Source of the DNA: Microbacter sp. GSS18
GTDB lineage: Bacteria; Actinomycetota; Actinomycetes; Actinomycetales; Microbacteriaceae
Direction of reading: 5' to 3'
DNA: 64,000 nt
NCBI GenBank assembly: GCA_029319145.1
Contig: CP119753.1
Coordinates: 62,001 to 126,000, forward strand
Part shown: positions 15,137 through 29,963 of the stretch, in pieces
Position numbering within the stretch: position 1 is the first letter of the stretch
Layout of the letters: the number at the start of each line of letters is the position of its first letter
Position numbers and translations under genes: made by a program
The notes under the pieces: model-generated
What the model was told of the DNA's origin: nothing
The model's input: only the letters and a program-made list of their open reading frames with translations
Databases searched by the model: none

Positions 15137-16168
15137 TCAGTGCACCGACGCCTCGGCCTTCTCGATGTGGGCGCGCGTGACGCGCTTGCGGAAGACCCAG
15201 TACGTCCAGCCCTGGTACAGCAGCACCAGCGGCAGGAAGATCAGCGCGGCCCAGCTCATGATCGTCAGCGTCAGGTCGGTGCTCGAGGCGTTCTCGATCG
15301 TGAGGCTGAAGGCGTCGTCGGTCGTCGACGGCATCACGTACGGGAACAGCGCCGTCCACAGGGACAGGACCGCGGTCGCGATCGTGAGGGCGCCGAAGCC
15401 GAACGCCCAGCCCTCGCGCTTGATCCAGTTCGCCCACACCGACAGCAGCAGGGCGACGGCGGCGATCGCGCCGGTCGCGACGCTCAGCCACAGCAGCGGC
15501 GCGTCGCGGCCGCCCGCGATGACCCACGTCCACACGACGGTTCCCGCGGCGAAGACGACGGTGGGGATCGCGAGGCGCTTGGCCAGTCCGTTCGCGTCCT
15601 GCTGAACCTGACCGTCCGTCTTGAGGGCGATGAAGTACACGCCGTGCAGCCAGAACAGCATCAGCGTCGTCACGCCGACCCACAGGCCGTACGGGTTCAG
15701 CAGTGTCAGCAGCGTCCCGGTGAAGTTGAAGTCGGCGTCGATCGGCACGCCCTGCACGATGTTGCCGACCGCGACGCCCCACAGCAGCGCCGGGAGGGCC
15801 GAGCCGATCACGATCATCCAGTCGAAGCGCGCCTTCCACTTCGGGTCGTTGCGCTGGTGGCGGTACTCGAACGAAACGCCGCGGGCGATGAGTGCGAGCA
15901 GGATCAGTAGCAGCGCGAGGTAGAACCCGCTGAAGAGCGTGGCGTACCACTCGGGGAACGCCGCGAACAGGCACGCGCCGGCGACGATGACCCACGTCTC
16001 GTTGAGGTCCCACACGGGGCCGATGGTGTTGATGATCTGCCGGCGCGAGACCTCGTTCTTGCCGAGGAAGGGCAGCGACATGCCGACGCCGAAGTCGAAG
16101 CCGTCGAGGACGAAGTAGCCGACGAAGAGGACGCCGACGATGAAGAACCAGAGGTATGCGAGATCCAT
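15137..16168 (-). CDS. cydB: Cytochrome bd ubiquinol/menaquinol oxidase subunit II
   Basis: The product has 343 residues and about eight membrane helices. It begins MDLAYLWFFIVGVLFVGYFVLDGFDFGVG, with the family's GPVWDLNETWVIVAGACLFAAFPEWYA. It forms the bd-type terminal oxidase with CydA, reducing oxygen to water with quinol electrons at high oxygen affinity. AGGAG precedes the ATG, and only 9 bp separate it from the cydA stop. Confidence 0.95.
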   Translation of the reverse strand: MDLAYLWFFIVGVLFVGYFVLDGFDFGVGMSLPFLGKNEVSRRQIINTIGPVWDLNETWVIVAGACLFAAFPEWYATLFSGFYLALLLILLALIARGVSFEYRHQRNDPKWKARFDWMIVIGSALPALLWGVAVGNIVQGVPIDADFNFTGTLLTLLNPYGLWVGVTTLMLFWLHGVYFIALKTDGQVQQDANGLAKRLAIPTVVFAAGTVVWTWVIAGGRDAPLLWLSVATGAIAAVALLLSVWANWIKREGWAFGFGALTIATAVLSLWTALFPYVMPSTTDDAFSLTIENASSTDLTLTIMSWAALIFLPLVLLYQGWTYWVFRKRVTRAHIEKAEASVH

Positions 16169-16177
16169 GGCGCGCTC

Positions 16178-17623
16178 CTAGTAGACCGTGCTGGGGGTGT
16201 CTTCGACGGACATGTCGGATGGATGGGGGTCATCCGGTCCCGGCAGAGGATCGGGTCCCTTCTTCACGGCCTTGAAGATCAGGCCGAACTCGACGACCGC
16301 CAGGATCAGATAGATCAGCGTGAAGGCGACGAGCGAGACCAGGACGTTCCACCCGGGCACGTTCGGCGAGACGCCGTCCTCGGTGAGCATCAGCCCGAAG
16401 ACGATCCAGGGCTGTCGTCCCATCTCGGTGAAGATCCAGCCGACGAGGATGCCGAGGAGCGCGAGCGGCGCCTGCCAGATCGCGACCTTCCACATCCACG
16501 GCGCGGGCTCGCGCTTGGCGTTCTTGCGCGTGACCCACAGGCCCACGACGGCGATGAGCGCGGCGATGCCGCCGAAGCCCATCATCCAGCGGAACGACCA
16601 GTAGGTGACCCACAGGATCGGGGCGAAGTTCCCGTCGACCTGGTCGGCGAACTGCGGGAAGATCTCGGTGGTGTAGGCGAGGTTCAGGTCGTTGATGCCC
16701 TCGACGCAGCCGTTGAGCGTGTGCGTCGACAGGAACGCCAGCAGGTACGGCACGCGCAGCGACCAGATCTCGCTCGTGCCGTCGGGCGTCCCGATCGAGA
16801 ACAGCGAGAACGAGGCGTCCGCGCCGCACGCGCTGTTGAACAGCGCCTCGGCGGCTGCCATCTTCATGGGCTGCGTCTCGACCATGACCAGGCCCAGCTG
16901 GTCGCCCGAGACGGCGACGCCGACGAAGGCGATGACGACCGACCACAGGCCGAGCTTGAGGGCGGGGCGCATGACCTCGACGTTCTGCTTGCGGGCGAGG
17001 TGCCACGCGGCGGCGGCGACCATGACGCCGCCCGAGAACATGATGGCCGAGATGATCGTATGCGGGAACTGCGTCAGCGCCACGGGGTTGGTGAGCACCG
17101 CGACGAAGTCCGCCATCTCGGCACGGCCGCCGTCCTGCGCCATCTGGTAGCCGACCGGGTTCTGCATGAAGGCGTTGGCGGCGAGGATGAAGTACGCCGA
17201 CAGCCACGTGCCCACGACCGTGATCCAGATGGTGGCCAGGTGCAGGCCCTTGGGGAGCTTGTCCCACCCGAAGATCCACAGGCCGATGAAGGTCGCCTCG
17301 AAGAAGAAGGCCATGAGGCCCTCGAAGGCCAGCGGCGCGCCGAAGACGTCGCCGACGAAGCGGCTGTACGAGGACCAGTTCATGCCGAACTGGAACTCCT
17401 GCACGATGCCGGTGACGATTCCCATGGCGAAGTTGATCAGGAAGATCTTGCCGAAGAACCGCGTCAGGAGCAGGTACTTCACGTCCGCCGTGCGGTACCA
17501 GGCGCTCTGGAAGATCGCCACGAAGAGCGACATGCCCAGCGTCAGCGGCACGAAGATGAAGTGGTAAAGCGTCGTCAGGCCGAACTGCCAGCGTGCCAGC
17601 AGCAGCGGGTCGAGGAACTCCAC
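16178..17623 (-). CDS. cydA: Cytochrome bd oxidase subunit I
   Basis: The product has 481 residues and starts at a GTG (VEFLDPLLLARWQFGLTTLYHFIFVPLTLG). Conserved elements include the haem-region EFQFGMNWSSYSRFVGDVFGAPLAFEGL, FFFEATFIGLWIFGW and QPWIVFG. It holds the quinol site and the haems. It leads the cydABDC set. Upstream lie a TAGAAT -10 box and a palindrome shared with the DoxX gene, so expression is probably repressor-controlled. GGAG lies 9 bp before the start. Confidence 0.96.
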   Translation of the reverse strand: MEFLDPLLLARWQFGLTTLYHFIFVPLTLGMSLFVAIFQSAWYRTADVKYLLLTRFFGKIFLINFAMGIVTGIVQEFQFGMNWSSYSRFVGDVFGAPLAFEGLMAFFFEATFIGLWIFGWDKLPKGLHLATIWITVVGTWLSAYFILAANAFMQNPVGYQMAQDGGRAEMADFVAVLTNPVALTQFPHTIISAIMFSGGVMVAAAAWHLARKQNVEVMRPALKLGLWSVVIAFVGVAVSGDQLGLVMVETQPMKMAAAEALFNSACGADASFSLFSIGTPDGTSEIWSLRVPYLLAFLSTHTLNGCVEGINDLNLAYTTEIFPQFADQVDGNFAPILWVTYWSFRWMMGFGGIAALIAVVGLWVTRKNAKREPAPWMWKVAIWQAPLALLGILVGWIFTEMGRQPWIVFGLMLTEDGVSPNVPGWNVLVSLVAFTLIYLILAVVEFGLIFKAVKKGPDPLPGPDDPHPSDMSVEDTPSTVY

Positions 17624-17668: not shown

Positions 17669-17691
17669 ATTCTAAACAGTGGTCAGACCAC
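17669..17691 (-). promoter_or_regulatory. cydA promoter with FadR/GntR-type palindrome
   Basis: The palindrome GTGGTCAGACCAC spans 17679-17691. On the minus strand it ends 4 nt before a TAGAAT -10 box (17669-17674), about 45 nt from the cydA start. The core TGGTCnGACCA is the pattern bound by FadR-subfamily GntR regulators (LldR, PdhR, FadR). The same 13 bp occur in the palindrome upstream of the DoxX gene at 29370. Confidence 0.65.
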
Positions 17692-17858
17692 AATGGGCGC
17701 AGGGGTCGTGCTCCCAGGTGGTTCTCAGAATCGCAGGTGCCCGGGGCCCCCACCACCCAAGACCCGGGACCTAGGTCCCACGGGGCGGCGCTGCCGGCGG
17801 TCCCGCGGCCGTTCCCGCACCGTATCCTCGCGCCGACGCCCCGGGGGTCCTCGGCGGG

Positions 17859-17864
17859 TAGCCT
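17859..17864 (+). promoter_or_regulatory. -10 box before the moaA leader ORF
   Basis: TAGCCT stands exactly 6 nt before the ATG of a 13-codon ORF (17871), the spacing expected for a leaderless start. Confidence 0.5.
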
Positions 17865-17870
17865 CGGAGC

Positions 17871-17912
17871 ATGGCGCGCTCGAGCAGCACACGCCGGGGA
17901 GCGGCCTCGTGA
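17871..17912 (+). CDS. 13-codon leader ORF overlapping the moaA start
   Basis: ATG at 17871 opens a frame encoding MARSSSTRRGAAS. Its TGA (17910-17912) overlaps the moaA GTG (17909-17911) as GTGA. A TAGCCT box lies 6 nt upstream. The GGGGAG that would serve as the moaA ribosome binding site lies inside this ORF. The arrangement suggests that translation of the short ORF delivers ribosomes to moaA. No conserved peptide function is claimed. Confidence 0.5.
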   Translation: MARSSSTRRGAAS

Positions 17913-18970
17913 CCGCGATCCCGGTGATGATCGGCCTGCGCCCGCCTGCGCCCGAGGCGGTCGGCGGTGACGGGCCCCTCGTCGACACGCACGGACGGGT
18001 GCACCGCGACCTGCGCATCTCGCTCACCGACCGCTGCTCGCTGCGCTGCACCTACTGCATGCCCGAGCAGGGCAACGAGTGGCTCGCGCGCAGCAGCATC
18101 CTGACCGTCGACGAGATCCTCGAGGTCGCACGAGGTGCGGCTGCCGCGGGCATCACGACGTTCCGGCTGACCGGCGGCGAGCCGCTGCTGCGCACCGACA
18201 TCGCCGACATCGTCCGGCGCCTGGCGACGATCACGGGTCCCGACGGTTCGCGCGTCGAGGTCGCGATGACGACCAACGGCATCCGCCTGCCCGAGTTCCT
18301 GCCCGACCTGATCGACGCGGGACTGTCGCGCCTGAACATCTCGATCGACACGCTGCGCCGGGACCGGTTCCGCGATCTGACGCGTCGCGACCGGCTCGAC
18401 GACGTGCTCGCCGGCATCGCGGCGGCGGCCGCGTCGGGCCTGCGACCCCTCAAGCTCAACGCCGTGGCGATGCGCGGGGTCAACGACGACGAGCTCGTGG
18501 AGCTGGTCGAGTTCGCCACCCGCCACAGCGCCCAGCTGCGCTTCATCGAGCAGATGCCGCTCGACGCCGGGCACACGTGGGACCGCGCGAGCATGGTCAC
18601 CCGGGACGAGATCCTCGACGCGCTGTCGGCGCGGTGGCGTCTGGACCCGATCCCGGGGCGCGGGGGAGCGCCGGCGGAGCGCTGGACGCTCGACGGCGGT
18701 CCCGACACCGTCGGGGTCATCGCGTCGGTGACCGCCCCGTTCTGCGGCGACTGCGACCGGCTGCGGCTGACCGCCGACGGCCAGCTGCGCAACTGCCTGT
18801 TCTCCACGACCGAGTACGACCTGCTGCCGGTGCTGCGGGACTCGGGCGAGGCGCCGGAGGGGATCGATCGGATGCTTCGCGCGTGTGTCCGCGGCAAGCT
18901 GCCGGGCCATGCCATCAACGATCCGTCGTTCCTGCAGCCCGCGCGCGGCATGAACGCGATTGGCGGCTGA
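17909..18970 (+). CDS. moaA: GTP 3',8-cyclase, molybdenum cofactor biosynthesis
   Basis: The product has 353 residues from the GTG at 17909 (GGGGAG 8 bp upstream); an ATG at 17927 is an alternative. The radical-SAM cluster motif is C43-SLR-C47-TY-C50. TTFRLTGGEPLLR follows, and the second cluster appears as FCGDCDRLRLTADG...RNCLF. The protein ends in the functional Gly-Gly. It converts GTP to 3',8-cyclo-dihydro-GTP, the first step to molybdopterin. fdhD lies two genes downstream, consistent with molybdoenzyme maturation. Confidence 0.95.
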   Translation: MTAIPVMIGLRPPAPEAVGGDGPLVDTHGRVHRDLRISLTDRCSLRCTYCMPEQGNEWLARSSILTVDEILEVARGAAAAGITTFRLTGGEPLLRTDIADIVRRLATITGPDGSRVEVAMTTNGIRLPEFLPDLIDAGLSRLNISIDTLRRDRFRDLTRRDRLDDVLAGIAAAAASGLRPLKLNAVAMRGVNDDELVELVEFATRHSAQLRFIEQMPLDAGHTWDRASMVTRDEILDALSARWRLDPIPGRGGAPAERWTLDGGPDTVGVIASVTAPFCGDCDRLRLTADGQLRNCLFSTTEYDLLPVLRDSGEAPEGIDRMLRACVRGKLPGHAINDPSFLQPARGMNAIGG

Positions 18971-19017
18971 CGGAAGGATCGGGCCCCGGCGGCGGAATCC
19001 ACGGCAGAGTAGTCACG

Positions 19018-20478
19018 ATGACTCCTGCGCCGCCCACCGGAACGGTCGACCTGACGCATCCTCAGCGCTGGCGGGCGTTCTGGGTCGCGGTCGGCGTCGC
19101 CTCGCTGACGATCCTGGACCTGTCGAAGGTCAACGTCGCGCTGCCCTCGATCGAAGTCGCGCTCGGGGCCGGATCCACGGCCCTGCAGCTCATCGTCTCG
19201 GGGTACGTGCTGACGTTCGGCCTCGTCCTGGTGCCGATGGGTCGCCTGGGGGATCAGCGCTCGCGGCGGGCTCTGTTCATCATCGGGCTGTCGATGTTCA
19301 CGGTGCTGAGTCTCGTGTGCGCGATCGCGCCGACGACCGAGGTCCTCATGATCGGCCGGCTGCTGCAGGGCGTGGCCGCCGGCATCCAGATGCCCCAGGT
19401 CCTGGGGCTCATCCAGCAGCTGTTCCACGGCGAGGAGCGCGGCCGGGCGTTCGGGCTGTTCGGCGCCACCGTCGGGGTCGCGACGGCGTTCGGGCCGACG
19501 CTCGGCGGCCTGCTCATCGCCCTCGGCGGAGAGCAGGACGGCTGGCGCTGGGTGTTCTGGATGAACGTGCCGCTCGGGATCGTGGCGATCGCGGCGGCGA
19601 TCTGGGTGCTGCCGAGCACGCGGAGCGGGTCGCGCAAGCCGCTGCAGCTCGATCCGTTCGGCGTCGTGCTGTTCGGCATCACGGTGCTGGCGCTGATGTG
19701 GCCGTTCCTGTTCACGACCGGGTCGCCCGACGACGACCCGCGCCGCTGGTGGCTGCTGGCCGTCTTCGTGCTGTTCGCCGCGGGCTTCCTGGCCTGGGAG
19801 CGGCACTACGAGCGACTCGGCAAGGCGCCGCTCGTGCCGTTCGGGCTGTTCCGCATCACGTCCTACCGCAACGGCACGGTGCTTCAGGCCGTCTACTTCG
19901 CCGCGGCCCCCGCGCTGTTCCTCCTCACGACCCTCTTCCTGCAGGGCGGCGTGGGGCTCGCGCCGGTCTTCGCGGGCATGGTGACGATCGGCTTCGCGCT
20001 GGCGAGCGCGGTGTCGTCGTGGATCGGCGGCAACATCGTCACCCGCTACGGCCGGCCTGTCGTGATCTGGGGGCTGGCGGGCATGCTGCTGGCGGTGGGG
20101 CTGCTCGCCCTCAGCGCGACCCTGCTGCCCGAGTCCGTCATCGCGTGGGTGATGGCGGGCGTCATGGTGATCGGCGGATTCGGCGGCGGACTCGTCATCG
20201 CGCCGAATCAGACGCTCACGCTCCACGACGTCCCCGTCCGGCAGGGCGGCATCGCCGGTTCGGTCGGGCAGCTGGGCCAGCGCGTGGGCACCGCCGTCGG
20301 CACGGCCGTGGCGCTGTCGCTGTTCTACGCCACGATCTTCCGCGAGTCCGGCGACGTGGCGGCCTACGTGGCGTTCCATGACGCCTACACCTACGGGCTG
20401 ATGGCGATCGGCCTGTTCGTCGCGATCGCCTTCATCATCGCCGTGATGGACCTCAACGACCGGCGCCGGCGCGGCTGA
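19018..20478 (+). CDS. MFS transporter, DHA2 (EmrB/QacA) family
   Basis: The product has 486 residues with about 14 predicted membrane segments. Motifs include TILDLSKVNVALPSIEVALG (helix 1, with the family aspartate), GRLGDQRSRR (motif A) and RLLQGVAAGIQMPQVLGLI. It is probably a proton-driven exporter of small hydrophobic compounds. It sits 47 bp after moaA and 42 bp before fdhD on the same strand, so it interrupts an otherwise molybdenum-related pair. The ATG at 19018 is chosen because the frame upstream is antiphase to moaA. Confidence 0.88.
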   Translation: MTPAPPTGTVDLTHPQRWRAFWVAVGVASLTILDLSKVNVALPSIEVALGAGSTALQLIVSGYVLTFGLVLVPMGRLGDQRSRRALFIIGLSMFTVLSLVCAIAPTTEVLMIGRLLQGVAAGIQMPQVLGLIQQLFHGEERGRAFGLFGATVGVATAFGPTLGGLLIALGGEQDGWRWVFWMNVPLGIVAIAAAIWVLPSTRSGSRKPLQLDPFGVVLFGITVLALMWPFLFTTGSPDDDPRRWWLLAVFVLFAAGFLAWERHYERLGKAPLVPFGLFRITSYRNGTVLQAVYFAAAPALFLLTTLFLQGGVGLAPVFAGMVTIGFALASAVSSWIGGNIVTRYGRPVVIWGLAGMLLAVGLLALSATLLPESVIAWVMAGVMVIGGFGGGLVIAPNQTLTLHDVPVRQGGIAGSVGQLGQRVGTAVGTAVALSLFYATIFRESGDVAAYVAFHDAYTYGLMAIGLFVAIAFIIAVMDLNDRRRRG

Positions 20479-20508
20479 CCGGGCAGAGCCGGTGCCCCCG
20501 AACGCGAC

Positions 20509-20514
20509 TACGCT
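20509..20514 (+). promoter_or_regulatory. -10 box of fdhD
   Basis: TACGCT ends 6 nt before the fdhD ATG, and no ribosome binding site is seen, suggesting leaderless transcription. Confidence 0.5.
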
Positions 20515-20520
20515 CTGACC

Positions 20521-21402
20521 ATGGGCCGCATCACCGCACGCCGCCCCGTGGTGAAGATCACGGTGGGAGGTTCCCAGACCCGCCGCCCCGACACGCTCGC
20601 CGTCGAGGAGCCGCTCGAGATCCGCGTCGGCGGGGAGCCGCTCGCGGTGACGATGCGCACGCCCGGGCACGACGTCGAGCTCGCCGCCGGATTCCTCGTG
20701 TCCGAGGGGGTCATCGGCCACGCCGGCGAGTTCCGCTCGGCCATCCACTGCGGCGGGCCCGGCACCGGCGGCCCGCTCGCCGGGAACTCCGAGAACACCT
20801 ACAACGTCCTCGACGTCACGCTCGCCCCGGGCGTCGAGCTGTCGGCGTCGTCGCTCTCGCGCAACTTCTACACGACGTCGTCGTGCGGGGTGTGCGGCAA
20901 GGCCTCGATCGACGCCGTCGAGACGGTGTCGAGGTTCGCGCTGAAGACGGATGCCGCCCGCGTCGGCGCCGAGACGCTGGTCACCTTCCCCGACCGGCTC
21001 CGCGAGGAGCAGGCGGTGTTCGAGAAGACCGGGGGGCTGCACGCAGCTGCCCTGTTCGACGCGGCGACGGGCGAGCTGCTCGTGGTCCGCGAGGACGTCG
21101 GCCGTCACAACGCCGTCGACAAGGTCGTCGGCTGGGCGGTGCTCGAGGATCGCCTGCCGCTGAGCGCAACGGTGCTGCAGGTGTCGGGACGCGCCAGCTT
21201 CGAGCTCGTGCAGAAGGCCGTCATGGCCGGCATCCCGATCCTCGCAGCGGTCTCGGCGCCGTCGTCGCTCGCGGTCGAGCTCGCGGCGGCATCCGATCTG
21301 ACGCTCGTGGGGTTCCTGCGCGGGAACTCGATGAACGTCTACACCGGCGTCGGGCGCGTGGCCGTGCCCGAGACGGCGGGCGATCGCCCGGCCGCGACCT
21401 GA
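20521..21402 (+). CDS. fdhD: Formate dehydrogenase accessory sulfurtransferase
   Basis: The product has 293 residues. The conserved [12 protein letters not shown] holds the C122-x-x-C125 pair that relays sulfur from a cysteine desulfurase to the bis-MGD cofactor. Other family stretches are [17 protein letters not shown] and [25 protein letters not shown]. It matures formate dehydrogenase; no such enzyme gene is in the window. A TACGCT box lies 6 nt before the ATG. Confidence 0.95.
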
Positions 21403-21405
21403 GGG

Positions 21406-21765
21406 TCAGAAGACGAACAGCTGCCCGAGCACCACGATCGCGATGATGAAGAGGGCGATGACGGCCGCGATGATCGACAGCGTGCGGCGCGACAGCGTCG
21501 CGACGCCCCAGCCGGCGAGGAACGGCAGCGACACGAGGAAGATCGACACGACCCACCAGAACGCCATGTAGCCACCGGTCGTGGCCTCTTCCAGGCGTCC
21601 GGCGAAGAGCTGCTGCGTGCGCGGGTGCGTCGCGAAGGCGACCGAGGCGGACAGGGGCACGGCGATGAACGCCGCGACGATCAGGCCGACCAGGAACCCC
21701 CACAGCGTCGGGCTTCCCCCGCCGCCGATGATTCCGCCGGACATCTCTTCGCGCTGGTTGGGCAT
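21406..21765 (-). CDS. Small membrane protein, unknown function
   Basis: The product has 119 residues with three hydrophobic segments: around LWGFLVGLIVAAFIAVPLSA, the FWWVVSIFLVSLPFLAGWG region and a C-terminal IIAAVIALFIIAIVVLGQLFVF. No catalytic motif is visible. It converges with fdhD, with only 3 bp between the stops. I do not recognise the family. Confidence 0.7.
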   Translation of the reverse strand: MPNQREEMSGGIIGGGGSPTLWGFLVGLIVAAFIAVPLSASVAFATHPRTQQLFAGRLEEATTGGYMAFWWVVSIFLVSLPFLAGWGVATLSRRTLSIIAAVIALFIIAIVVLGQLFVF

Positions 21766-21805
21766 GCCGACAACTCTATCCAGTCGGCCGCGGGCGGCAT
21801 GACGC

Positions 21806-21840
21806 GGCGCCGCCCGCGGCTGGGGAGCGCGGGCGGCGCC
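21806..21840 (-). terminator. 13-bp perfect stem after dps
   Basis: Arms GGCGCCGCCCGCG (21806-21818) and CGCGGGCGGCGCC (21828-21840) flank a 9-nt loop, 16 bp beyond the dps stop. It is a strong hairpin without a T-run. Confidence 0.8.
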
Positions 21841-21856
21841 GTGTGAGCGCCTGGGA

Positions 21857-22429
21857 TCATCGCTTCGGCGTGCGGTTCTCCGCGCTCACCATCCACGACA
21901 GCTGCTCGACGCGCTCCAGGATTCCGTGGAGGATGTCGGCGCTCGTGGGGTCTTCGTCGTCGACGGCATCGTGGACGTCGCGGCACGTGTGCGCCACGGT
22001 GTCCAGTCGCTCGGTGATCAGGTCGACGACCTCGCTGGTGTCGAGCTCGCCCTGCGGGAACTCCGGCAGGGTCGTGGTCTCGGCGACCGTGTCGCTGCGG
22101 CCGTCGGGCAGCGCGTGCAGTGCGCGCATCCGCTCGGCGACGTCGTCCGAGAAGGCGCGTGCGGCGTCGATGATCTCGTCCAGCTGCAGATGGGTGTCGC
22201 GGAAGTTGCGGCCCACGACGTTCCAGTGGGCCTGCTTGCCCTGCAGCGACAGCTCGATGAGGTCGACGAGCACCTTCTGCATGCTCTCGCCGAGGGCGGC
22301 GGAGGCCGAGAACCCGGTCTCTGCGTTCTGCTCGCCCGTGAGTGCTGCGCCCATGCCGCCTCGGGCGGCACGTCGGCGGTTTCGCGCGCCGGGCGTCGGC
22401 GTGGTCTTCTTCACGGTTGCGGTGGCCAT
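21857..22429 (-). CDS. dps: Dps family DNA-protecting ferritin-like protein
   Basis: The product has 190 residues. The ferroxidase segment reads KQAHWNVVGRNFRDTHLQLDEIID, with the histidines and acidic residues expected at the dimer interface. The N-terminus has a basic, Thr/Pro/Arg-rich tail of about 25 residues (TVKKTTPTPGARNRRRAARGG) that may bind DNA. Dps shells store iron by consuming hydrogen peroxide and compact DNA under stress. GAGGAG precedes the ATG. It is an isolated gene bounded by its own hairpin. Confidence 0.92.
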   Translation of the reverse strand: MATATVKKTTPTPGARNRRRAARGGMGAALTGEQNAETGFSASAALGESMQKVLVDLIELSLQGKQAHWNVVGRNFRDTHLQLDEIIDAARAFSDDVAERMRALHALPDGRSDTVAETTTLPEFPQGELDTSEVVDLITERLDTVAHTCRDVHDAVDDEDPTSADILHGILERVEQLSWMVSAENRTPKR

Positions 22430-22537
22430 GTGGGGCTCCTCCCGGTCGGTCGACGGTGTGCTCGGGTCGTGAGCGCGCTCGACGATACGCGCGCAGCCTG
22501 ACCGCGGCAGGGGGATTGCCTCTGTGCGCGCTGGATG

Positions 22538-23161
22538 CTACGCCGAGGCGGATGCCGCGCGCTCGAGCCCGTCGAGGATGAGGTCGAGCCCGATCGCGAA
22601 CCCGTCGCCGGGCGGGCGATCCTCGAGATGCTGGTGCGCGTGGATGCTCAGGTGCGGGTACGTGCGGATGGTGTCGAGAAGCTCATCGACACGGGTCGGG
22701 GTGTCGAGCGGGGCGAACTGCAGCGCCTGCCAGGTGTAGCCGTACACGTGGCCGTCGATGATGTGGAGCGCGTGGAATGCGAGGTCCTCGGGCACGCCTC
22801 CCGCGGCGAGCTGTGCCAGCGTCGCGTCGATGACCGCGAGGCGGGATTCGCCGCCCTCGGTGAGGGGAAGGGCGAAGAACCACGGGTGCGCGAGCAGCGC
22901 GGCGTGCGCGGAGCCGGCGAGCCGGTGCAGCGCCGCGCGCCAGTCGGGCTCGTCGCGCGCGAGATCGACCGCGCGCCACACCGCGTCGATGAGGCCCCGT
23001 TCGAGGTCGGCCTTGCTGCGCACGTGGTTGTAGAGCGACATCGCCTCGACGCCCAGCTCGGCCGCGAGCCGGCGCATCGACAGCGCGGGCAGTCCGTCGC
23101 GGTCGGCGAGCGCGAGTGCGGCGGCCAGGACGCCCTCCCGGGTCAGGCCCGCTCTGGCCAT
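22538..23161 (-). CDS. TetR/AcrR family transcriptional regulator
   Basis: The product has 207 residues. The helix-turn-helix is LSMRRLAAELGVEAMSLYNHVRSKADL (residues about 26-52), and the C-terminal part resembles the TetR_C_1 (tetracycline-repressor type) ligand domain. It is transcribed divergently from an oxidoreductase gene, and two related palindromes lie in the shared 86-bp gap. It most likely represses both genes until an unknown ligand binds. Confidence 0.88.
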   Translation of the reverse strand: MARAGLTREGVLAAALALADRDGLPALSMRRLAAELGVEAMSLYNHVRSKADLERGLIDAVWRAVDLARDEPDWRAALHRLAGSAHAALLAHPWFFALPLTEGGESRLAVIDATLAQLAAGGVPEDLAFHALHIIDGHVYGYTWQALQFAPLDTPTRVDELLDTIRTYPHLSIHAHQHLEDRPPGDGFAIGLDLILDGLERAASASA

Positions 23162-23170
23162 GGCGCCTCC

Positions 23171-23223
23171 TTGACATGCTTACGCCGTAAGTATAGCGTC
23201 GTGCTCGGACATACACTGTAAGT
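23171..23223. promoter_or_regulatory. Divergent promoter region with two TetR-type operators
   Basis: A plus-strand promoter TTGACA (23171) - 17 bp - TAGCGT (23194) holds the perfect palindrome CTTACGCCGTAAG (23179-23191) in its spacer. A degenerate copy, CATACACTGTAAGT, lies at 23210-23223; in the same orientation ACTTACGGCGTAAG and ACTTACAGTGTATG share 11 of 14 positions. This layout fits steric repression by the divergent TetR protein. Confidence 0.7.
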
Positions 23224-23247
23224 TTTCGCGACAGGCGAGGAGCCGCC

Positions 23248-24228
23248 ATGAGGGCCGTCACACACGATCGGTACACGGATGCCGAGGGGCTCACGCTCGG
23301 GGAGGTGCCCGTTCCCGAGCCGGGCGCCGATCGCATCCGCATCCGCGTCGAGGCCGCCGCCCTGAACCCCTTCGACTGGCACCTGTACCGCGGCGAACCC
23401 TGGATCATGCGTCTGCAGCAGGGCCTGCGGGTGCGCGGACCGCGGGGCGTGGGGGCGGACGTCGCCGGTGTGGTCGAGGCCGTGGGGGAGGACGTCGACC
23501 GCTTCCGGGTCGGCGACCGCGTGTTCGGGACCATCGGCCGCGGCGCCCTCGCCGAAGCCGCGGTGGCGCGTCCGGCGGCCTTGGCCGCGGTGCCCGACGG
23601 CGTCTCCTCCGACGACGCGGCCGCCGCGGCGATGGCCGGCGTCACGGCGCTCCAGGCGCTGCGCGACACGGCGCGGCTCGAGGCAGGGGAGCGCGTGCTG
23701 GTGTGGGGCGCGTCGGGGGGCGTCGGCCATCTCGCCGTCCAGCTCGCCCGGGTCCTCGGAGCCGGGAGCGTCGATGCCGTCTGCTCGGGCCGCAACGCCG
23801 ACCTGGTGCGGGGTCTCGGCGCCGACGAGGTCTACGACTACACGACCTCGGCCGCGCCGGTGGGGCCGTACGACGTCGTACTCGACACCGTCGGGACGGC
23901 ATCGATATCGCGGCTGAAGGGGCTGCTCGCGCCGGAAGGGCGCGTGGTGCTGGTCGGCGCCCTGGGCGGCGGGCGCCTTCTCGGCCCGCTCGGTGGGACC
24001 CTGCGGCGCGGCATCGGCGCCCGCCTGCGCGGCGTGGACCACCGCGGGATGCTGGCGACGGTGCGCGGCGGCGACCTCGCCCTGCTCGGCGGATGGCTGG
24101 CCGACGGTTCGCTGGTGCCGGCGGTGCAGCAGACGTTCGGGCTCGACGGCGCGATCGAGGCGCTGCGGATGCTCGAGGCCGGGCATGTGGCCGGAAAGCT
24201 CGTGGTCCGGCCGCGAGCGGGGGAGTGA
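23248..24228 (+). CDS. NAD(P)-dependent zinc-less medium-chain oxidoreductase (quinone reductase-like)
   Basis: The product has 326 residues. It begins MRAVTHDRYTDAEGLTLGEVPVPEPG, has NPFDWHLYRGEP and DVAGVVEAVGEDVDRFRVGDRVFG, and the nucleotide-binding loop VWGASGGVGHLAVQLARVLGA. The zinc cysteine cluster is absent, pointing to the quinone-reductase/zeta-crystallin group. GAGGAG lies before the ATG. Divergent TetR control suggests induction by a reactive or toxic small molecule. Confidence 0.88.
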   Translation: MRAVTHDRYTDAEGLTLGEVPVPEPGADRIRIRVEAAALNPFDWHLYRGEPWIMRLQQGLRVRGPRGVGADVAGVVEAVGEDVDRFRVGDRVFGTIGRGALAEAAVARPAALAAVPDGVSSDDAAAAAMAGVTALQALRDTARLEAGERVLVWGASGGVGHLAVQLARVLGAGSVDAVCSGRNADLVRGLGADEVYDYTTSAAPVGPYDVVLDTVGTASISRLKGLLAPEGRVVLVGALGGGRLLGPLGGTLRRGIGARLRGVDHRGMLATVRGGDLALLGGWLADGSLVPAVQQTFGLDGAIEALRMLEAGHVAGKLVVRPRAGE

Positions 24229-24256
24229 CGTCCGGGGAGCAGCGCGCCGCGGAGGA

Positions 24257-24676
24257 TCACCCGTCGCCGGGCTCGGCATCGAGCTGTTCCCGGAGCGTGT
24301 CGGCGTCGAGCAACTCCCACACTTCGGCGATGCGCTCGCCGTCGAATCGCAGGAAGAACATGTGCGGCACCGCGATCGTCCGCCCGGTGGGTGCGCGGCC
24401 CTGGAACCCGCCCTCGTGGGTTCCGCGGAGCGTCGCGCGAACGGCGACGTGATCGCCGGACGCGACGACGGCGTGCAGCTCGAAGCGGAAGTCGGGGAAC
24501 CCCGCGTGCCAGCGGTCGACGAAGTCCCGCAGCTCGGCGGCGTCGCTCTCGCGCGTCTGCGCCCCGATGTGCAGGCGGAAGCTCTGCAGCGCTGCGGCGG
24601 TGGTCGTGAAGTCGCGGCGGTTCCACGCGTCCTCGAACACCGCGCGGGCGACGTCGGTCCTGCTGGGCTCCGCCAT
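24257..24676 (-). CDS. SnoaL-like / ester cyclase family protein
   Basis: The product has 139 residues. The pattern FEDAWNRRDF...FRLHIGAQTRESDAAELRDFVDRWHAGFPDFRFELHAVVASGDHVAVRATLRGTHEG is that of SnoaL-like polyketide-cyclase/NTF2-fold proteins. Its ATG overlaps the stop of the glutamine-synthetase-like gene by one base (TGATG), so it is co-translated with it. These proteins act as cyclases, isomerases or hydrolases on small molecules; the substrate is unknown. Confidence 0.8.
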   Translation of the reverse strand: MAEPSRTDVARAVFEDAWNRRDFTTTAAALQSFRLHIGAQTRESDAAELRDFVDRWHAGFPDFRFELHAVVASGDHVAVRATLRGTHEGGFQGRAPTGRTIAVPHMFFLRFDGERIAEVWELLDADTLREQLDAEPGDG

Positions 24677-25962
24677 CAGTTCGTCCAGGCGTAGCGCAGG
24701 CGCTCCGCCGTCTCGGCCACGGCCTGCTCGGCGTACGTCTCGTGCTCCGTCGTGCGCACCGCGGTCAGCGCCTCGATGATCCACGCGCCCAGGGCTGTCG
24801 CGGCGACCGGGGATCGCGCGAGACGCGCGAGCTGGTCGGGCACGTCGACGGGGAGGAGCGCCGGCGGGGGATCCGCCGCGGCCGGATTCACCGTCACCTC
24901 GGCCGGGAGCACGCTTCCCGCGCGGATGCCGACGTGTGCGGCCTCGAGCAGCACGGCGGTGGCCGAATAGGGATTGGCCGACGGATCGATGCACTTGACC
25001 TCGAGATTCGCCCCGCCCGCGGCGCCCGGCCCGTCTGCGATGAGCCGCACCGCCGCCTCGCGGTTCTCGACGCCCCAGCAGCGCCATGCCCCCGACCACA
25101 TCCCGGGCGTCATGCGCTGCACTGACAGCGGCGAGGACGCCAGCACGCCCATGAGTTCGGGAAGCGCCGAAAGGATGCCGCCGATCGCGCCGGCGCCGGC
25201 ATCCGTCATGCCGTGTTCGCGCGCCCCGCCGGCGAAGACGGGCACACCTCCGGTCGTGATCGACAGATGAACGTGCGCGCCGTTGCCCGAGCCGCCGGCC
25301 GACGGCAGCGGCGAGAACGACGCAGCCATGCCGTGCTCGCGGGCGGCCTGCGAGATGACCGTGCGCGCCAGAACGAGCGCGTCCGCGGCTTCGACGGGCG
25401 GCAGCGCCCGGAGTGAGATCTCGAACTGGTTCGCACCGAACTCGGCGTGCACCTGGGCGACTCCGAGGTCGGCGACCCAGGCGCGGGCGAGCACGCTCTG
25501 GAGGAATCGGCGCTGATCCAGTGCCGCGCCCAGTCCGTACGCCGACCAGTGGGGTGCGGCGACCCCGTCGAACAGTGTGAACTCGAGTTCGTGGCCCACG
25601 CGCGCGGCGATGCCGTCGGCGCCGAGCCGTTCGACGGTGCGCGCCAGCGCCGACCGCGTGCACACCGGCGAGACCGCGCCGTCCTGGGTGTGCACGGTCG
25701 CCGGCGCCCACTGCACGCCGTCGCCGAGACTCCGCAGCGCGCCGGGCTCGATGCGAAGCCGCTGGTCGCCGACGACCCCGAAGCGGTCGGTGAAGGCCAG
25801 CTGGTCGTCCGCGCAGAACACGTTCCAGCTGGGCGAGGCACCCATGCCGACGCTCACGAACTCGTCCAGCCGGTCGGCCGGAACGGCCTTGGCGCGCGTC
25901 ACACCGCCGGGGTCGACGATCGAGCCGAACACGAGGGGTTCGACGGGGGCGGGCTCGGTCAT
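24676..25962 (-). CDS. Glutamine synthetase-like enzyme (gamma-glutamyl ligase type)
   Basis: The product has 428 residues. Catalytic landmarks of type I glutamine synthetases are present: VGHELEFTLFDG, QVHAEFGANQFEIS, the ATP/glutamate loop GSGNGAHVHLS, and a C-terminal VKCIDPSANPYSATAVLL. The usual N-terminal Asp50 loop differs and no adenylylation-type ending is seen, so it more likely ligates glutamate to an amine other than ammonia. The start overlaps the upstream amidohydrolase stop by 4 nt. The pair corresponds to the two halves of fungal FluG-type fusion proteins. Confidence 0.85.
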   Translation of the reverse strand: MTEPAPVEPLVFGSIVDPGGVTRAKAVPADRLDEFVSVGMGASPSWNVFCADDQLAFTDRFGVVGDQRLRIEPGALRSLGDGVQWAPATVHTQDGAVSPVCTRSALARTVERLGADGIAARVGHELEFTLFDGVAAPHWSAYGLGAALDQRRFLQSVLARAWVADLGVAQVHAEFGANQFEISLRALPPVEAADALVLARTVISQAAREHGMAASFSPLPSAGGSGNGAHVHLSITTGGVPVFAGGAREHGMTDAGAGAIGGILSALPELMGVLASSPLSVQRMTPGMWSGAWRCWGVENREAAVRLIADGPGAAGGANLEVKCIDPSANPYSATAVLLEAAHVGIRAGSVLPAEVTVNPAAADPPPALLPVDVPDQLARLARSPVAATALGAWIIEALTAVRTTEHETYAEQAVAETAERLRYAWTN

Positions 25963-27128
25963 GGTCCTTCGCCTTCCGTGGGGAGTCCGTAGACGCGCTC
26001 GGCGTTGCCGCGCCCGATCATGCCGGCGACGCGCACCGCGTCGTCGAGCGCCCATTCGCCCGCTTCGACGTGGTCGCCGAGCACGCTGACCATCGCGTCG
26101 CGCCACAGCCGGGCGCCGAGCAGGTACAGCTCGGGCAGCCCCCACGCGTCCGTCGAGAAGAGCACGGTGTGCAGCGGTGCGAGGCCCAGCGCCTGCCGCA
26201 CGCTGTCGATCGAGCGTGCACCCAGGTGCGGCACGGCCAGCCCGACGTCCATCACGACCCGCGGGAAGGCGTGGCACAGGTACGCCGCCTCGCGCTCGAA
26301 CGGATGACAGTGCAGCAGGGCGATCACGGCGCCAGTGCCCGCGGCGCGCGCGATGAGCGGCTGCAGATGCAGGGGGTTCGCGTCGGCGAGGAGCAGGTCG
26401 GGGTCGCCGAATCCGGTGTGCACCTGCAGGACGGCCCGACGTCGCAGCGCCCACCACACGAGGTGGCGGATGAGCACCGGATGGCGCAGTCGCGGGTCGC
26501 CGGCCGCGAGCCACTCGGCTGCCGCCGTGCGCACCTCGTCGTCGTCCGGAGGCTCCGGATCGAAGGCGAGGCCCGTGCGGTACGCCGCGATCGTCTTGAA
26601 GCCCGCAGCTCCCGTGCGCGCCGCCTCGAGCCGGGCGCCGATCGTCCGGACCAGATCGTCGGGGTCCTTCGCCGTCTGGAACGCCCGCTCGGCCTCGTGC
26701 TCGAGCCGCACGACGGGGAGCGTCGGCACGCCGGTGGTGGCGGTGAAGTCCTCGGGCGACAGCAATCGCTCCGCCGCGTGGCCGTGGTCGACGAGCGCGA
26801 GGGCGATGCCGGCCGCGGCGACGAGACGGCGCGTCGTCTCGGCGCTGCCGAGCTCGGACCGCCGATCGAGGTAGGCATCGGGCGAGGCGAACGGCTCGAG
26901 CCCCAGCACGGGCGCGCAATGACGGCGCACGGCGAAGCCGAGCTGGCTGTCGAAGGCCGTCGCCGGGGGTGTCGGCCGGTGGTGCGCCTCGGTCATGGCG
27001 TTCTCGAACGCGGGCCGGTCGAGATCGGCGGCCATGACACTGTGCGCGTGGTGGTCGATCAGCGCGATGTCGTCGACCGCGCGCCGCAGGACGTCGCGGG
27101 CCGACGGGGCTCCCGCGGGCCGCTGCAT
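25959..27128 (-). CDS. Amidohydrolase family protein (FluG N-terminal type)
   Basis: The product has 389 residues. LIDHHAHSV near residue 25 gives the first metal histidines. VLQVHTGFGD, ALLHCHPFEREAAYL and LFSTDAWGLPELYLLGARLWR provide later ligands and the catalytic aspartate of the amidohydrolase-2 fold. It heads a three-gene minus-strand operon with the GS-like and SnoaL-like genes. A plausible role is hydrolysis of a gamma-glutamyl or amide product made by the ligase partner. A TACCGT box lies 7 nt before the ATG. Confidence 0.85.
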   Translation of the reverse strand: MQRPAGAPSARDVLRRAVDDIALIDHHAHSVMAADLDRPAFENAMTEAHHRPTPPATAFDSQLGFAVRRHCAPVLGLEPFASPDAYLDRRSELGSAETTRRLVAAAGIALALVDHGHAAERLLSPEDFTATTGVPTLPVVRLEHEAERAFQTAKDPDDLVRTIGARLEAARTGAAGFKTIAAYRTGLAFDPEPPDDDEVRTAAAEWLAAGDPRLRHPVLIRHLVWWALRRRAVLQVHTGFGDPDLLLADANPLHLQPLIARAAGTGAVIALLHCHPFEREAAYLCHAFPRVVMDVGLAVPHLGARSIDSVRQALGLAPLHTVLFSTDAWGLPELYLLGARLWRDAMVSVLGDHVEAGEWALDDAVRVAGMIGRGNAERVYGLPTEGEGP

Positions 27129-27135
27129 GGACCCG

Positions 27136-27141
27136 ACGGTA
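27136..27141 (-). promoter_or_regulatory. -10 box of the FluG-like operon
   Basis: On the minus strand TACCGT is 7 nt before the ATG at 27128, compatible with a leaderless mRNA. The rest of the 236-bp divergent gap up to the amidase gene shows no clear palindrome. Confidence 0.45.
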
Positions 27142-27364
27142 GCCCCGACGCGCGGCGCGGGGAACCCCCGCCGAGCCCCGCGGCGCTTCGGGCGGTCGTG
27201 CTTTCCGCCTGCCTGCCGCGCACCAAGCGCGCTCCGAGTCTCGGATCGTCGCGCCTGAATCGGGCCACCGCGCCCGGATTCGCCGAGGCTCGCGCGGCTC
27301 TCCGATGTTCGGATCTCCCGGGCGCGCGGCGGCGGTGCGTGGTTGGATCGAGGAGGGGGTGCGG

Positions 27365-28819
27365 ATGCAGGACGAGCCGTCGCAGACGACTGCAGGGCTG
27401 CCGAGCGCGCGGAGGATCGCGGCCGTCGTCGCGGCGCGAGCGGTGTCGGCGCGCGACGTGATCGACGCGCACCTCGCCCGGATCGAGACGCGCAATCCTC
27501 GCCTCACAGCCGTCACGGTCGCTTTCGCCGACCGGGCGCGCGCCGAGGCGGCGTCCCTCGACCACGATCTCGCCGCGGGGCGCCCGGCCGGCCCGCTCGC
27601 GGGGGTGCCGTTCACGGTCAAGGAGAACATCGACCTCACGTGGTCGGCGACGACGAACGCGTGGCACGGGGCCGAGGACGCCGTCCCCCGGGCCGACGCC
27701 GCCGTCGTCAGGCGCCTGCGCGATGCCGGCGCGATCCCCATCGGGCGCGGCAACATGCCCGACTTCGGCATGCGCTGGGACACCGACAACGACCTGTTCG
27801 GCCGCACGCTCAATCCGTGGGATCCGTCCCGCAGTCCGGGCGGGTCCAGCGGCGGGGATGCCGTCGCGGTCGCGACGGGCATGTCCGCGCTCGGGCTCGG
27901 GAACGACTTCGGCGGATCGGTGCGCATCCCGGCGTACGCGGCGGGGATCTGCGGACTGCGTCCGTCCCGCGGGCGCGTTCCGCGGGCAGCCGTCGGCGAC
28001 CTGCCCGTTGCGCTCACGCTCCAGCAGTTCTCGGTCAACGGCCCGCTGGCACGCTCGGTCGACGATCTGGCGCTCGCGCTCGACGTGCTCGAGGGGCCGG
28101 ATCCCGATGACCCGGTCTCGGTCGCCGTCGTCGATCCGGCGGATCTCCCGCGCCGTGTCGGCGTCGTCGCCGATCCGCTCGGGTGGGGTGTGGACGTCGA
28201 GGTGGCGGCCGCGGTCGGGCGCGCCGCCGCGGCGCTGACCGATGCCGGCTGGGACGTCGTGCCGGTCGAGCCGCCCCATCTCGAGGAGGCGATCGTGCTG
28301 TGGCGGCGCCTGGCGTGCACCGACATGCTCTTCAGCCTCGGGCCGGAGGCGCTGCCGATCCCGCTCGGCCGCTCGGCGTCGCGGTTCCTCCGCGACAGCA
28401 CGGCGGCCGCCGTGCCGTACGAGACCGCCCGCGAGTACGCCGATGCGTGGGCGCGCTGCGCCGTGATCGCCGCGGCGTGGCGTCGGCTCCAGACCGAGGT
28501 GCCGGTGATGCTCGGGCCCGTCTCGGCCACGCGCATGGGCCCGCCCGACTACGACCTGGCGGGCCGCGGAGCCGGCGACGGCACCGATGGAGGCGAGGCG
28601 GCCACGCACGCGTGGCGCGACCTGCGCCTCACGGTCGCGGTCAATCTGCTGGGGCTCCCGGCGGTGGCGGTGCCGACCGGGGCGGATGCCGACGGGCTTC
28701 CGACGGGCGTCCAGCTCATCGGCCCGATGCACGGCGACCGCCTCGCGCTCGAGGCCTCTCGCGCGGTCGAGGCGGTGTGCGGGATGCTGGTACCGCCGGC
28801 ATCGAAGGAGACCGCATGA
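27365..28819 (+). CDS. Amidase (amidase signature family)
   Basis: The product has 484 residues from the ATG at 27365, with GAGGAGGGG 8 bp upstream. The Ser-cisSer-Lys triad is visible as K86 (FTVKENID), S161 (PGGSSGG) and S185 (NDFGGSVRIPA), with spacing like malonamidase E2. It hydrolyses an amide or acyl bond in the cytoplasm. It is divergent from the FluG-like operon and overlaps the Nudix gene by ATGA, so related nitrogen-compound metabolism is plausible. Confidence 0.9.
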   Translation: MQDEPSQTTAGLPSARRIAAVVAARAVSARDVIDAHLARIETRNPRLTAVTVAFADRARAEAASLDHDLAAGRPAGPLAGVPFTVKENIDLTWSATTNAWHGAEDAVPRADAAVVRRLRDAGAIPIGRGNMPDFGMRWDTDNDLFGRTLNPWDPSRSPGGSSGGDAVAVATGMSALGLGNDFGGSVRIPAYAAGICGLRPSRGRVPRAAVGDLPVALTLQQFSVNGPLARSVDDLALALDVLEGPDPDDPVSVAVVDPADLPRRVGVVADPLGWGVDVEVAAAVGRAAAALTDAGWDVVPVEPPHLEEAIVLWRRLACTDMLFSLGPEALPIPLGRSASRFLRDSTAAAVPYETAREYADAWARCAVIAAAWRRLQTEVPVMLGPVSATRMGPPDYDLAGRGAGDGTDGGEAATHAWRDLRLTVAVNLLGLPAVAVPTGADADGLPTGVQLIGPMHGDRLALEASRAVEAVCGMLVPPASKETA

Positions 28820-29214
28820 CTGAGCCGCTCGTGGTCGTCGCCGCGGTCATCGAACGCGAAGGGCGGATCCTGGCGTGCCGCCGCCGGCCCGGGAAGATCG
28901 CGGGCGGTCGCTGGGAGTTCCCGGGCGGGAAGGTCGAGCACGGCGAGGACCCCGAGAGCGCGCTGGTGCGCGAGATCGCCGAAGAGCTCGGCGTCGGCAT
29001 CCGCATCACCGGCCTTCTCACCACCGACGAGACGGATGCCGGGGATCGCGTGATCCGATTGAGCTGCTTCCGCGCCGAACTCGTCGGGGCCGGGCCGGTC
29101 GCCAGCACCGATCACGACCGTCTGGCGTGGCTCGAGCCCGCCGCGCTCCCGGGCCTGGCGTGGGCGGCACCCGACGTTCCGGCGGTCCGGCTGCTCACCG
29201 GCGCGCAGTCCTGA
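28816..29214 (+). CDS. Nudix hydrolase, MutT-like 8-oxo-dGTPase group
   Basis: The product has 132 residues. The Nudix box is GGKVEHGEDPESALVREIAEELGV, matching Gx5Ex7REUXEExGU, preceded by the MutT-typical GRWEFPG. AGGAG lies just upstream of the ATG, and the start overlaps the amidase stop. It likely removes pyrophosphate from oxidised or other nucleotides. The small size fits the MutT/NudG class rather than NADH pyrophosphatases. Confidence 0.88.
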   Translation: MTEPLVVVAAVIEREGRILACRRRPGKIAGGRWEFPGGKVEHGEDPESALVREIAEELGVGIRITGLLTTDETDAGDRVIRLSCFRAELVGAGPVASTDHDRLAWLEPAALPGLAWAAPDVPAVRLLTGAQS

Positions 29215-29235
29215 GAGAGTCCTGAACGTCGGGCG

Positions 29236-29247
29236 GGACCAAGGTCC
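29236..29247. promoter_or_regulatory. 12-bp palindrome upstream of the DoxX-like gene
   Basis: GGACCAAGGTCC is a perfect inverted repeat about 40 bp upstream of the larger palindrome at 29276. It has no assigned factor. Confidence 0.3.
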
Positions 29248-29275
29248 TATGCGGACGCATCGAATCCGGGGGACT

Positions 29276-29298
29276 CTTGTGTGGTCAGACCACACAAG
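29276..29298. promoter_or_regulatory. 23-bp perfect palindrome, FadR/GntR-type operator
   Basis: Arms CTTGTGTGGTC (29276-29286) and GACCACACAAG (29288-29298) flank a single A. The central GTGGTCAGACCAC is identical to the site upstream of cydA. It lies 71 bp before the DoxX-like start. It could in principle also fold as an RNA hairpin, but the recurrence favours a protein site. Confidence 0.6.
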
Positions 29299-29369: not shown

Positions 29370-29963
29370 ATGACCACGCACGCAGTCCACACCACCGGCG
29401 CCGTCGCGACCGCTCGCCCGGCCGCTGCCGCCAAGCCCGTCGTCTTCGAGCGCGACATCGTCACGACCGTCGCCGGCCGCCGCTCGCTCGCGGTGCTCCG
29501 GCTCGCGACCGGCTTCATCTTCCTGTGGGCCTTCCTCGACAAGACCTTCGGCCTCGGCTTCTCGACACCGGTCGAGCGCGCCTGGGTCAACGGCGGTGCT
29601 CCCGCTCAGGGCTTCCTGAACAACGCCGTGACCGGTCCGCTGCAGCCCTGGTTCCAGTCCATCGCGAGCCCGCTCGTCGACGTGCTGTTCATGCTCGGCC
29701 TGCTCGCCATCGGCGCGGCGCTCATGCTCGGCATCGGCCTGCGTGTCGCCGCCGTCGCGACCACCGCGATGATGCTGCTGATGTACCTGGCCGAGTGGCC
29801 GTTCGCCGCCAACGCGGGCTCGACCAACCCCCTCGTCGACTACCACATCGTTTACGCCCTCGCCGCGATCGCCATCGCCGTGCTGGCCGCCGGCGACACG
29901 TGGGGCCTGGGCGCCTGGTGGAAGAAGCTGCCCTTCGTGCAGAAGTTCCGCTGGCTGATCTGA
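29370..29963 (+). CDS. DoxX/DoxD-like membrane protein
   Basis: The product has 197 residues with about four membrane helices: around LAVLRLATGFIFLWAFLDKTFG, LVDVLFMLGLLAIGAALMLGIGLRVA, TTAMMLLMYLAEWPF and VYALAAIAIAVLAAG. The long loop between helices 1 and 2 and the NPLVDYHIVYAL segment match the DoxD-type (thiosulfate:quinone oxidoreductase subunit) group. A disordered Ala/Thr-rich N-terminus precedes. GAAGGAG lies 11 bp upstream of the ATG. The upstream palindrome shared with cydA suggests a role in respiration or redox balance; the reaction is not known. Confidence 0.8.
   Translation: MTTHAVHTTGAVATARPAAAAKPVVFERDIVTTVAGRRSLAVLRLATGFIFLWAFLDKTFGLGFSTPVERAWVNGGAPAQGFLNNAVTGPLQPWFQSIASPLVDVLFMLGLLAIGAALMLGIGLRVAAVATTAMMLLMYLAEWPFAANAGSTNPLVDYHIVYALAAIAIAVLAAGDTWGLGAWWKKLPFVQKFRWLI

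Follow-up and report, generated by a model that had tools for sequence, protein, structure and literature searches.

A strict palindromic operator upstream of cydAB, pflB, and adhE in Microbacterium and an LldR-like candidate for its regulator

The 64-kb window analyzed here (bases 62001-126000 of the 4.03-Mb single-contig genome of Microbacter sp. GSS18, labeled G000) contains two exact copies of the 13-nt palindrome GTGGTCAGACCAC, one upstream of the cytochrome bd oxidase genes cydAB and the other upstream of a gene encoding a DoxX-like membrane protein. Comparison of genomes within the genus Microbacterium makes it likely that an LldR-type repressor, relieved by lactate, has this 13-mer as its operator; its range would have been extended to cydAB and, in the species that carry pyruvate formate-lyase (pflB), to fermentation genes. 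The operators, the genes that they precede, their conservation, and their co-occurrence with LldR are read directly from the genome sequences; binding by LldR, repression, L-lactate as the signal, and the action of DosR are inferred.

Operator copies in the window and in the genome

The first copy (17679..17691) is located 55 bp upstream of the start of cydA (16178..17623, minus strand; subunit I, Pfam PF01654, 2.6e-156). The second (29281..29293) is located 77 bp upstream of the start of the DoxX-like gene (29370..29963, plus strand), where it occupies the center of a 23-bp palindrome, CTTGTGTGGTCAGACCACACAAG, with a central A (29276..29298). The window contains no further GTGGTCAGACCAC at up to two mismatches, barring the same two places on the other strand. 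With both orientations taken together, 0.0016 exact copies would be expected in 64 kb (order-3 Markov model of the window). If the central position is left free, the pattern, GTGGTCNGACCAC, occurs 15 times in the whole genome vs. 0.61 expected (Poisson p ~3e-16), and its reversed control pattern was not found in the same 4.03 Mb (0 copies); a chance origin was rejected on these counts. Thus, the first-pass annotation of this DNA, which had reported both copies and considered their coincidence improbable, proved correct on each point and even understated the case. The 11-mer core TGGTCNGACCA occurs 18 times genome-wide vs. 3.9 expected and has the palindrome form of FadR-subfamily operators, i.e., TKGT/ACMA boxes with 3 nt between GT and AC, as given in the available text of PMC4494728.

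Thirteen of the 15 copies are located at, or no more than 160 bp before, a predicted gene start: 11 by measured spacings, the farther of two pflB copies (160 bp) by coordinates, and one that overlaps the longest possible start of an open reading frame (ORF) for a thioredoxin-fold lipoprotein. The 13-mer is thus not scattered in coding sequence, and neither of the two outcomes that the first-pass annotation had set as refuting came about. Of the remaining two copies, one is 306 bp from the assumed start of a UbiA gene, and the other, at genome position 131766, has no assigned target. The targets within 160 bp are cydA, the DoxX-like gene, a formate/nitrite transporter gene (FNT), adhE, a gene for an Fe-dependent alcohol dehydrogenase, pflB (two copies), the lipoprotein gene, ORFs of 61 and 41 aa, and genes for a DUF4062 protein, a class II aldolase-type protein, and a flavodoxin-fold protein. 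Gene starts come from a home-made caller (GC3 rule), with some small or wrong-frame ORFs being unreliable, and the main targets were checked by Pfam/NCBIfam or tblastn. AdhE, PflB, and NrdD (the last from G048) score above their NCBIfam equivalog cut-offs; FNT scores above the Pfam cut-off and below the NCBIfam subfamily cut-off.

The candidate regulator and its co-occurrence with the operator

The best candidate for the regulator, a GntR/FCD protein, is the product of the gene at G000:C1:276135-276854 and has a GntR winged helix-turn-helix domain (PF00392, 61.8 bits, cut-off 27) and an FCD domain (PF07729, 70.1 bits, cut-off 24.3). Its gene is followed by that of an FMN-dependent dehydrogenase (PF01070, 3e-125), which by sequence is probably an lldD-like L-lactate dehydrogenase; in some relatives lldD sits elsewhere and not beside lldR. 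The best solved relative of the regulator is 2DI3 (1.1e-46, 163 bits, residues 10-237), identified as LldR of Corynebacterium glutamicum in the available text of PMC4494728, and the next ones score far lower (NanR, 54 bits; a chain named Rv0494, 52 bits; PdhR, 47 bits). The protein does not reach the curated cut-off of either the E. coli LldR equivalog NF007741 (90.3 vs. 311 bits, the score of a relative rather than of the E. coli ortholog type) or PdhR (NF007001, 69 vs. 330 bits), and the fatty-acid regulator FadR was rejected as the regulator (NF003444, 43.5 bits vs. a cut-off of 189). Because its scores lie under the cut-offs for E. coli-type LldR, FadR, and PdhR, we term it LldR-like, of the corynebacterial kind. 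The FadR-type match proposed in the first-pass annotation therefore holds for the operator, which is of the FadR-subfamily GntR type, and fails for the regulator.

The promoter of this lldR gene harbors two copies of the operator, each deviating at one position, the first 48 bp and the second 24 bp from the gene start (spacing 24 bp). A GATAAT hexamer, recognized by eye, lies between them. The first-pass annotation had advised looking for a GntR gene whose own promoter carries the site, and such a gene does exist. The genome encodes 11 FCD proteins, of which 10 were covered by the promoter scan (the eleventh, L047, was left out on account of its unclear frame call), and the nine other than LldR had no copy at up to two mismatches in the 350 bp upstream of home-made start calls. 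The helix residues GVGRSSVREA are identical in all 15 aligned LldR proteins, including five from pflB carriers.

The pair of operators at lldR is widely conserved. Of the 80 named records retrieved for the closest LldR proteins (Microbacterium, 79; a Microbacteriaceae bacterium, one), 79 were usable, L313 being dropped for too little upstream sequence; an exact copy is present in 75 of the 79, a copy at no more than one mismatch in 77, and a pair spaced by 21-26 bp in 75, with none for the reversed control. In our sample of 59 genus genomes, which may overlap with these records, 27 of 30 fetched lldR loci have a copy at no more than one mismatch (G037, G048, and G050 lack it). In 12 of these 30 genomes the lldR pair makes up the only two exact copies. 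In the family sample, at least one exact copy is present in 86 of 199 genomes. Twenty such loci were fetched from 18 genomes outside the genus, and 12 of them are located immediately before an LldR ortholog (58-68% identity).

The operator largely co-occurs with LldR. At least one exact operator was found in 52, and an LldR ortholog (at least 55% identity) in 51, of the 59 genus genomes. All seven operator-free genomes are among the eight without an LldR ortholog (Fisher p 2e-8), a correlation that is partly trivial, since many genomes have no sites other than the ones in the lldR promoter itself. With the sample restricted to the 52 genomes of at least 90% completeness and no more than 5% contamination, sites are present in all 47 LldR carriers and in none of the five non-carriers.

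Operators at cydA and at fermentation genes

CydA is encoded in 57 of the 59 genus genomes, and an operator at no more than one mismatch precedes cydA at 21 of 30 fetched loci; with G025, G050, G051, and G055 added, the site is present at cydA in at least 25 of the 57 genomes. Seven of the 30 loci have two copies (no more than one mismatch each) 20-23 bp apart, close to the spacing of the lldR pair. In 12 genomes a single cydA copy approximately 40-45 bp before the start is accompanied by an operator that precedes lldD by 16-22 bp, and 10 of these genomes have no exact copies beyond the two (13 second-site loci were checked by tblastn, of which 12 precede lldD and the thirteenth is a further site of G020; L208, a third site of G058, was left out). 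Four of the 30 cydA loci come from genomes without LldR, three of them (G003, G015, and G035) without the operator and one (G044) with it.

The gene pflB was found in 12 of the 59 genomes. An exact operator precedes it in all 10 carriers with an lldR match and in neither of the two carriers without LldR (G035 and G054; PflB 83% identical). A second pflB copy, ranging from exact to three mismatches, is located 66-70 bp away in nine of the 10 genomes and 24 bp away in the tenth, G025. In the nine loci with the longer spacing (L294-L301 and L304), one copy is degraded in seven genomes. With this spacing, looping of the DNA between the two copies would be conceivable, which sets it apart from the lldR pair at 21-26 bp.

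The analysis covered 65 operator loci of the ten genomes with both pflB and LldR, nine of these loci without an assigned target; the reference set used for assignment includes proteins from these same loci, and entries confined to a single genome are therefore self-matches. Operators precede pflB in all ten genomes, adhE in eight, the thioredoxin-fold lipoprotein gene in six, FNT in five, the DoxX-like gene in four (49-70% identity in the other three), cydA and nrdD in three each, and genes for an Fe-alcohol dehydrogenase, a class II aldolase-type protein, AdhP, and an NAD-binding protein, as well as lldR, in two each. The predicted common theme is low-oxygen metabolism. A regulon marked by the operator, as the first-pass annotation had it, is thus retained; the special link that it hinted at between the terminal oxidase and a quinone-related DoxX protein is not, since the operator covers lldR-lldD, cydAB, pflB, adhE, FNT, and, in relatives, nrdD. 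The DoxX-like protein turns out to be one member among several.

In the window, cydA is followed by cydB (15137..16168, minus strand; subunit II, NCBIfam TIGR00203, 326.6 bits, cut-off 117.3), and a candidate cydA -10 hexamer, TAGAAT (17669..17674, minus strand), noted by eye, is located between operator and gene, 4 bp downstream of the operator in the gene direction. The DoxX-like protein (197 aa) has no Pfam or NCBIfam match at 1e-3, hence none to a curated DoxX model, and its name follows the source name of its homologs, "DoxX family protein." The 41-aa ORF (L032:3106-3231) starts 20 bp, and the 61-aa ORF (L030:3442-3627) 62 bp, downstream of operators of this genome; neither has a Pfam match, and the latter has two Cys-X2-Cys motifs.

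Predicted regulation, alternatives, and a possible second signal

We infer the following scheme. An LldR dimer would bind GTGGTCNGACCAC within or beside a promoter and block transcription; repression would fit the fact that the operators overlap or adjoin promoter-like hexamers, as judged by eye. Two copies about two helical turns apart would lock the promoter of lldR itself. L-lactate would lower the affinity of LldR and release its genes, as with the C. glutamicum protein, which represses the L-lactate utilization operon and also the fermentative ldhA, and whose binding is inhibited by L-lactate (available text of PMC7999487). With the repressor also attached to cydAB in the genus, quinone-linked lactate oxidation and the quinol oxidase would rise together, and in pflB-carrying species it would further cover pflB, adhE, FNT, and other genes (nrdD in some). 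Lactate accumulating as oxygen or respiration falls short would then open cydAB and the low-oxygen program.

A number of observations weigh against this assignment. All co-occurrence counts treat related genomes as independent, and the seven genomes devoid of sites include two incomplete ones (77 and 44% complete). The pflB comparison hangs on two LldR-less genomes, one of which, G035, keeps a pflB copy at one mismatch. G044 has operators at cydA and lldD, and no LldR ortholog was found in its assembly (88% complete, 650 contigs). The cydA operator is absent in the five closest CydA relatives (83-89%; G008, G018, G046, G048, and G037), all with LldR, and in G010, also with LldR; the conservation upstream of cydA on which the first-pass annotation counted is real in the genus and patchy. 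The lldR gene of G050 has no copy better than four mismatches. In G008, G037, and G048 (L188, L186, and L187) the lldR promoter copies carry 1-3 mismatches and the pflB and adhE operators are exact, in a comparison that leaves aside the lldR promoters of G010, G013, G018, G031, and G046. The lldR match of G031 (G031:C1:2348947-2349645) has one in-frame TGA, which may reflect either a nonfunctional LldR or a sequence error, and the pflB, adhE, and cydA operators of that genome are exact. Finally, some copies, located just beyond tRNA-Arg genes, look non-regulatory.

Among the alternatives, the one that survives best, unlikely as we consider it, retains LldR as the binding protein and replaces lactate at cydAB and the fermentation genes by pyruvate or another 2-hydroxy or 2-oxo acid. 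It would have a parallel in E. coli PdhR, a member of the same subfamily that recognizes GGTnnnACC sites and binds before cyoABCDE, ndh, lldPRD, and cydAB (available text of PMC7660256), and a pyruvate signal would suit pflB. Against it, among solved structures our regulator is closest to LldR (163 bits), with PdhR at 47 bits, the regulator gene adjoins lldD, and E. coli cydAB does not respond to the loss of PdhR according to the same text. Marginally less probable still is a division of labor, in which a second FCD/GntR paralog of the same specificity would run pflB, adhE, FNT, and the DoxX-like gene, leaving to LldR only lldR-lldD and perhaps cydAB. Degraded lldR copies beside exact pflB and adhE operators in G008, G037, and G048 would also fit such a regulator, as would the in-frame stop in G031 and the number of FCD proteins in this genome (11). 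However, among the 10 FCD promoters scanned here the site occurs only at lldR, G008, G037, and G048 all retain the LldR helix without change, and both LldR-less pflB carriers are without an exact operator.

Coincidence, or an element of another type such as a terminator or an attachment site, is a very improbable account of the two window copies: an exact copy does lie approximately 35 bp past a tRNA-Arg gene in four relatives, near an integrase-like ORF recognized by eye in some, but 15 copies vs. 0.6 expected mostly precede the starts of functionally related genes and recur at orthologous cydA, DoxX-like, pflB, adhE, and FNT genes. The copies beyond the tRNA-Arg(CCT) genes (L209, L210, L217, and L220) are themselves probably an attachment-site or terminator feature rather than operators. 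A fifth locus, L232, is similar, with no tRNA on the fetched stretch.

The proposed LldR-type regulation has known parallels, each with differences. C. glutamicum LldR provides the best solved relative of the regulator (2DI3), whereas cydAB, pflB, and adhE were not met among its targets in the literature consulted, as far as the available portions go. E. coli PdhR is likewise of the FadR subfamily, is tied to pyruvate and lactate, and has sites before cyoABCDE, ndh, lldPRD, and cydA, which by analogy may make it a precedent for a metabolite regulator of this subfamily with sites before oxidases; it belongs to another group of orthologs, cydAB is unaffected by its depletion, and the word pflB is absent from the available text (all PMC7660256). 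The operator of this genome is the strict GTGGTCNGACCAC, set against a corynebacterial LldR site that is looser. The low-oxygen regulons of Rex, ArcA, and FNR have similar targets (cydAB, pfl, and adhE), and their proteins and operators are unrelated to the LldR system.

Six of the 15 operators have, no more than 100 bp upstream, a palindrome of the form GGGAC-N4-GTCCC that resembles the box of the hypoxia regulator DosR (binomial p ~2.5e-12 under uniform placement, an optimistic value since the form was chosen after four of the six had been noticed by eye). A perfect box, GGGACCTAGGTCCC (17766..17779), is located between cydA and a divergent moaA-like gene (named by eye), and a box with one mismatch, GGGACCAAGGTCCT (29235..29248), is located 46 bp upstream of the second operator copy, start to start; the other four are at genome positions 145633, 234847, 1368405 (FNT), and 1391333 (adhE). 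Genome-wide, 57 boxes occur at no more than one mismatch vs. 17 for the reversed pattern. The adhE box, GGGACTTAAGTCCC, fits the DosR consensus applied here. The published OsdR consensus is AGGGCCGATCGGCCCT (available text of PMC5069765).

The genome also encodes a DevR-like response regulator next to a DosS/T-like kinase (G000:C1:3410782-3413063; L291:2783-5064), in likeness to the DevR/DosR-DosS/T and OsdRK systems. The response regulator is closest to DevR (3c3w, 2.6e-66; next best 4.6e-35), and the first GAF domain of the kinase is closest to 2vzw (1e-46), which we take to be DosT, and then to DevS (7e-41). A universal-stress-like gene, named by eye, precedes the kinase gene and has a degenerate box 66 bp before it, with one mismatch to the N4 form and two to the Y/R form. 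The difference from those systems is that the pairing of box and operator is essentially confined to this genome: in relatives, a box at no more than one mismatch within 200 bp was found at one of 92 scanned loci (L109; 89 of the loci have the operator), so that the pairing is not conserved; either it arose recently or a common palindrome has been overinterpreted. Perfect GGGACYNNRGTCCC boxes are also found upstream of a PTS-like gene and close to a possible LacI-type site (L242/L293 and L244; by eye), and perfect boxes occur near other genes as well; since these places share no evident hypoxia theme, the assignment to DosR is tentative. The six promoters with both elements suggest an AND-like gate in this genome, in which activation under hypoxia through the DosR-type box would be combined with derepression by lactate.

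By their operators, the genomes can be lined up from those with the lldR pair only (12 of 30), through those with sites at lldD and cydA only, to the 15-operator regulon of this genome (pflB, adhE, FNT, and cydAB, with nrdD elsewhere). This series leads us to propose, at somewhat less than even confidence, that a lactate-sensing repressor, at first serving a single catabolic operon, has become the main low-oxygen switch in Microbacterium, and that hypoxia and lactate are read together in the genome studied here. We found no account of such a regulon in Microbacterium in the open-licence literature searched, and nothing relevant there on DosR, LldR, or pyruvate formate-lyase in this genus.

If this reading is true, a local catabolic regulator has been promoted to a global low-oxygen regulator, with the intermediate stages visible within a single genus and a defined operator that is testable promoter by promoter. 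These bacteria are usually described as aerobic. The operator would offer a candidate explanation for the control of pyruvate formate-lyase and AdhE in Microbacterium, and in the present genome a hypoxia signal of the DosR type and a repressor governed by a metabolite would apparently converge on shared promoters.

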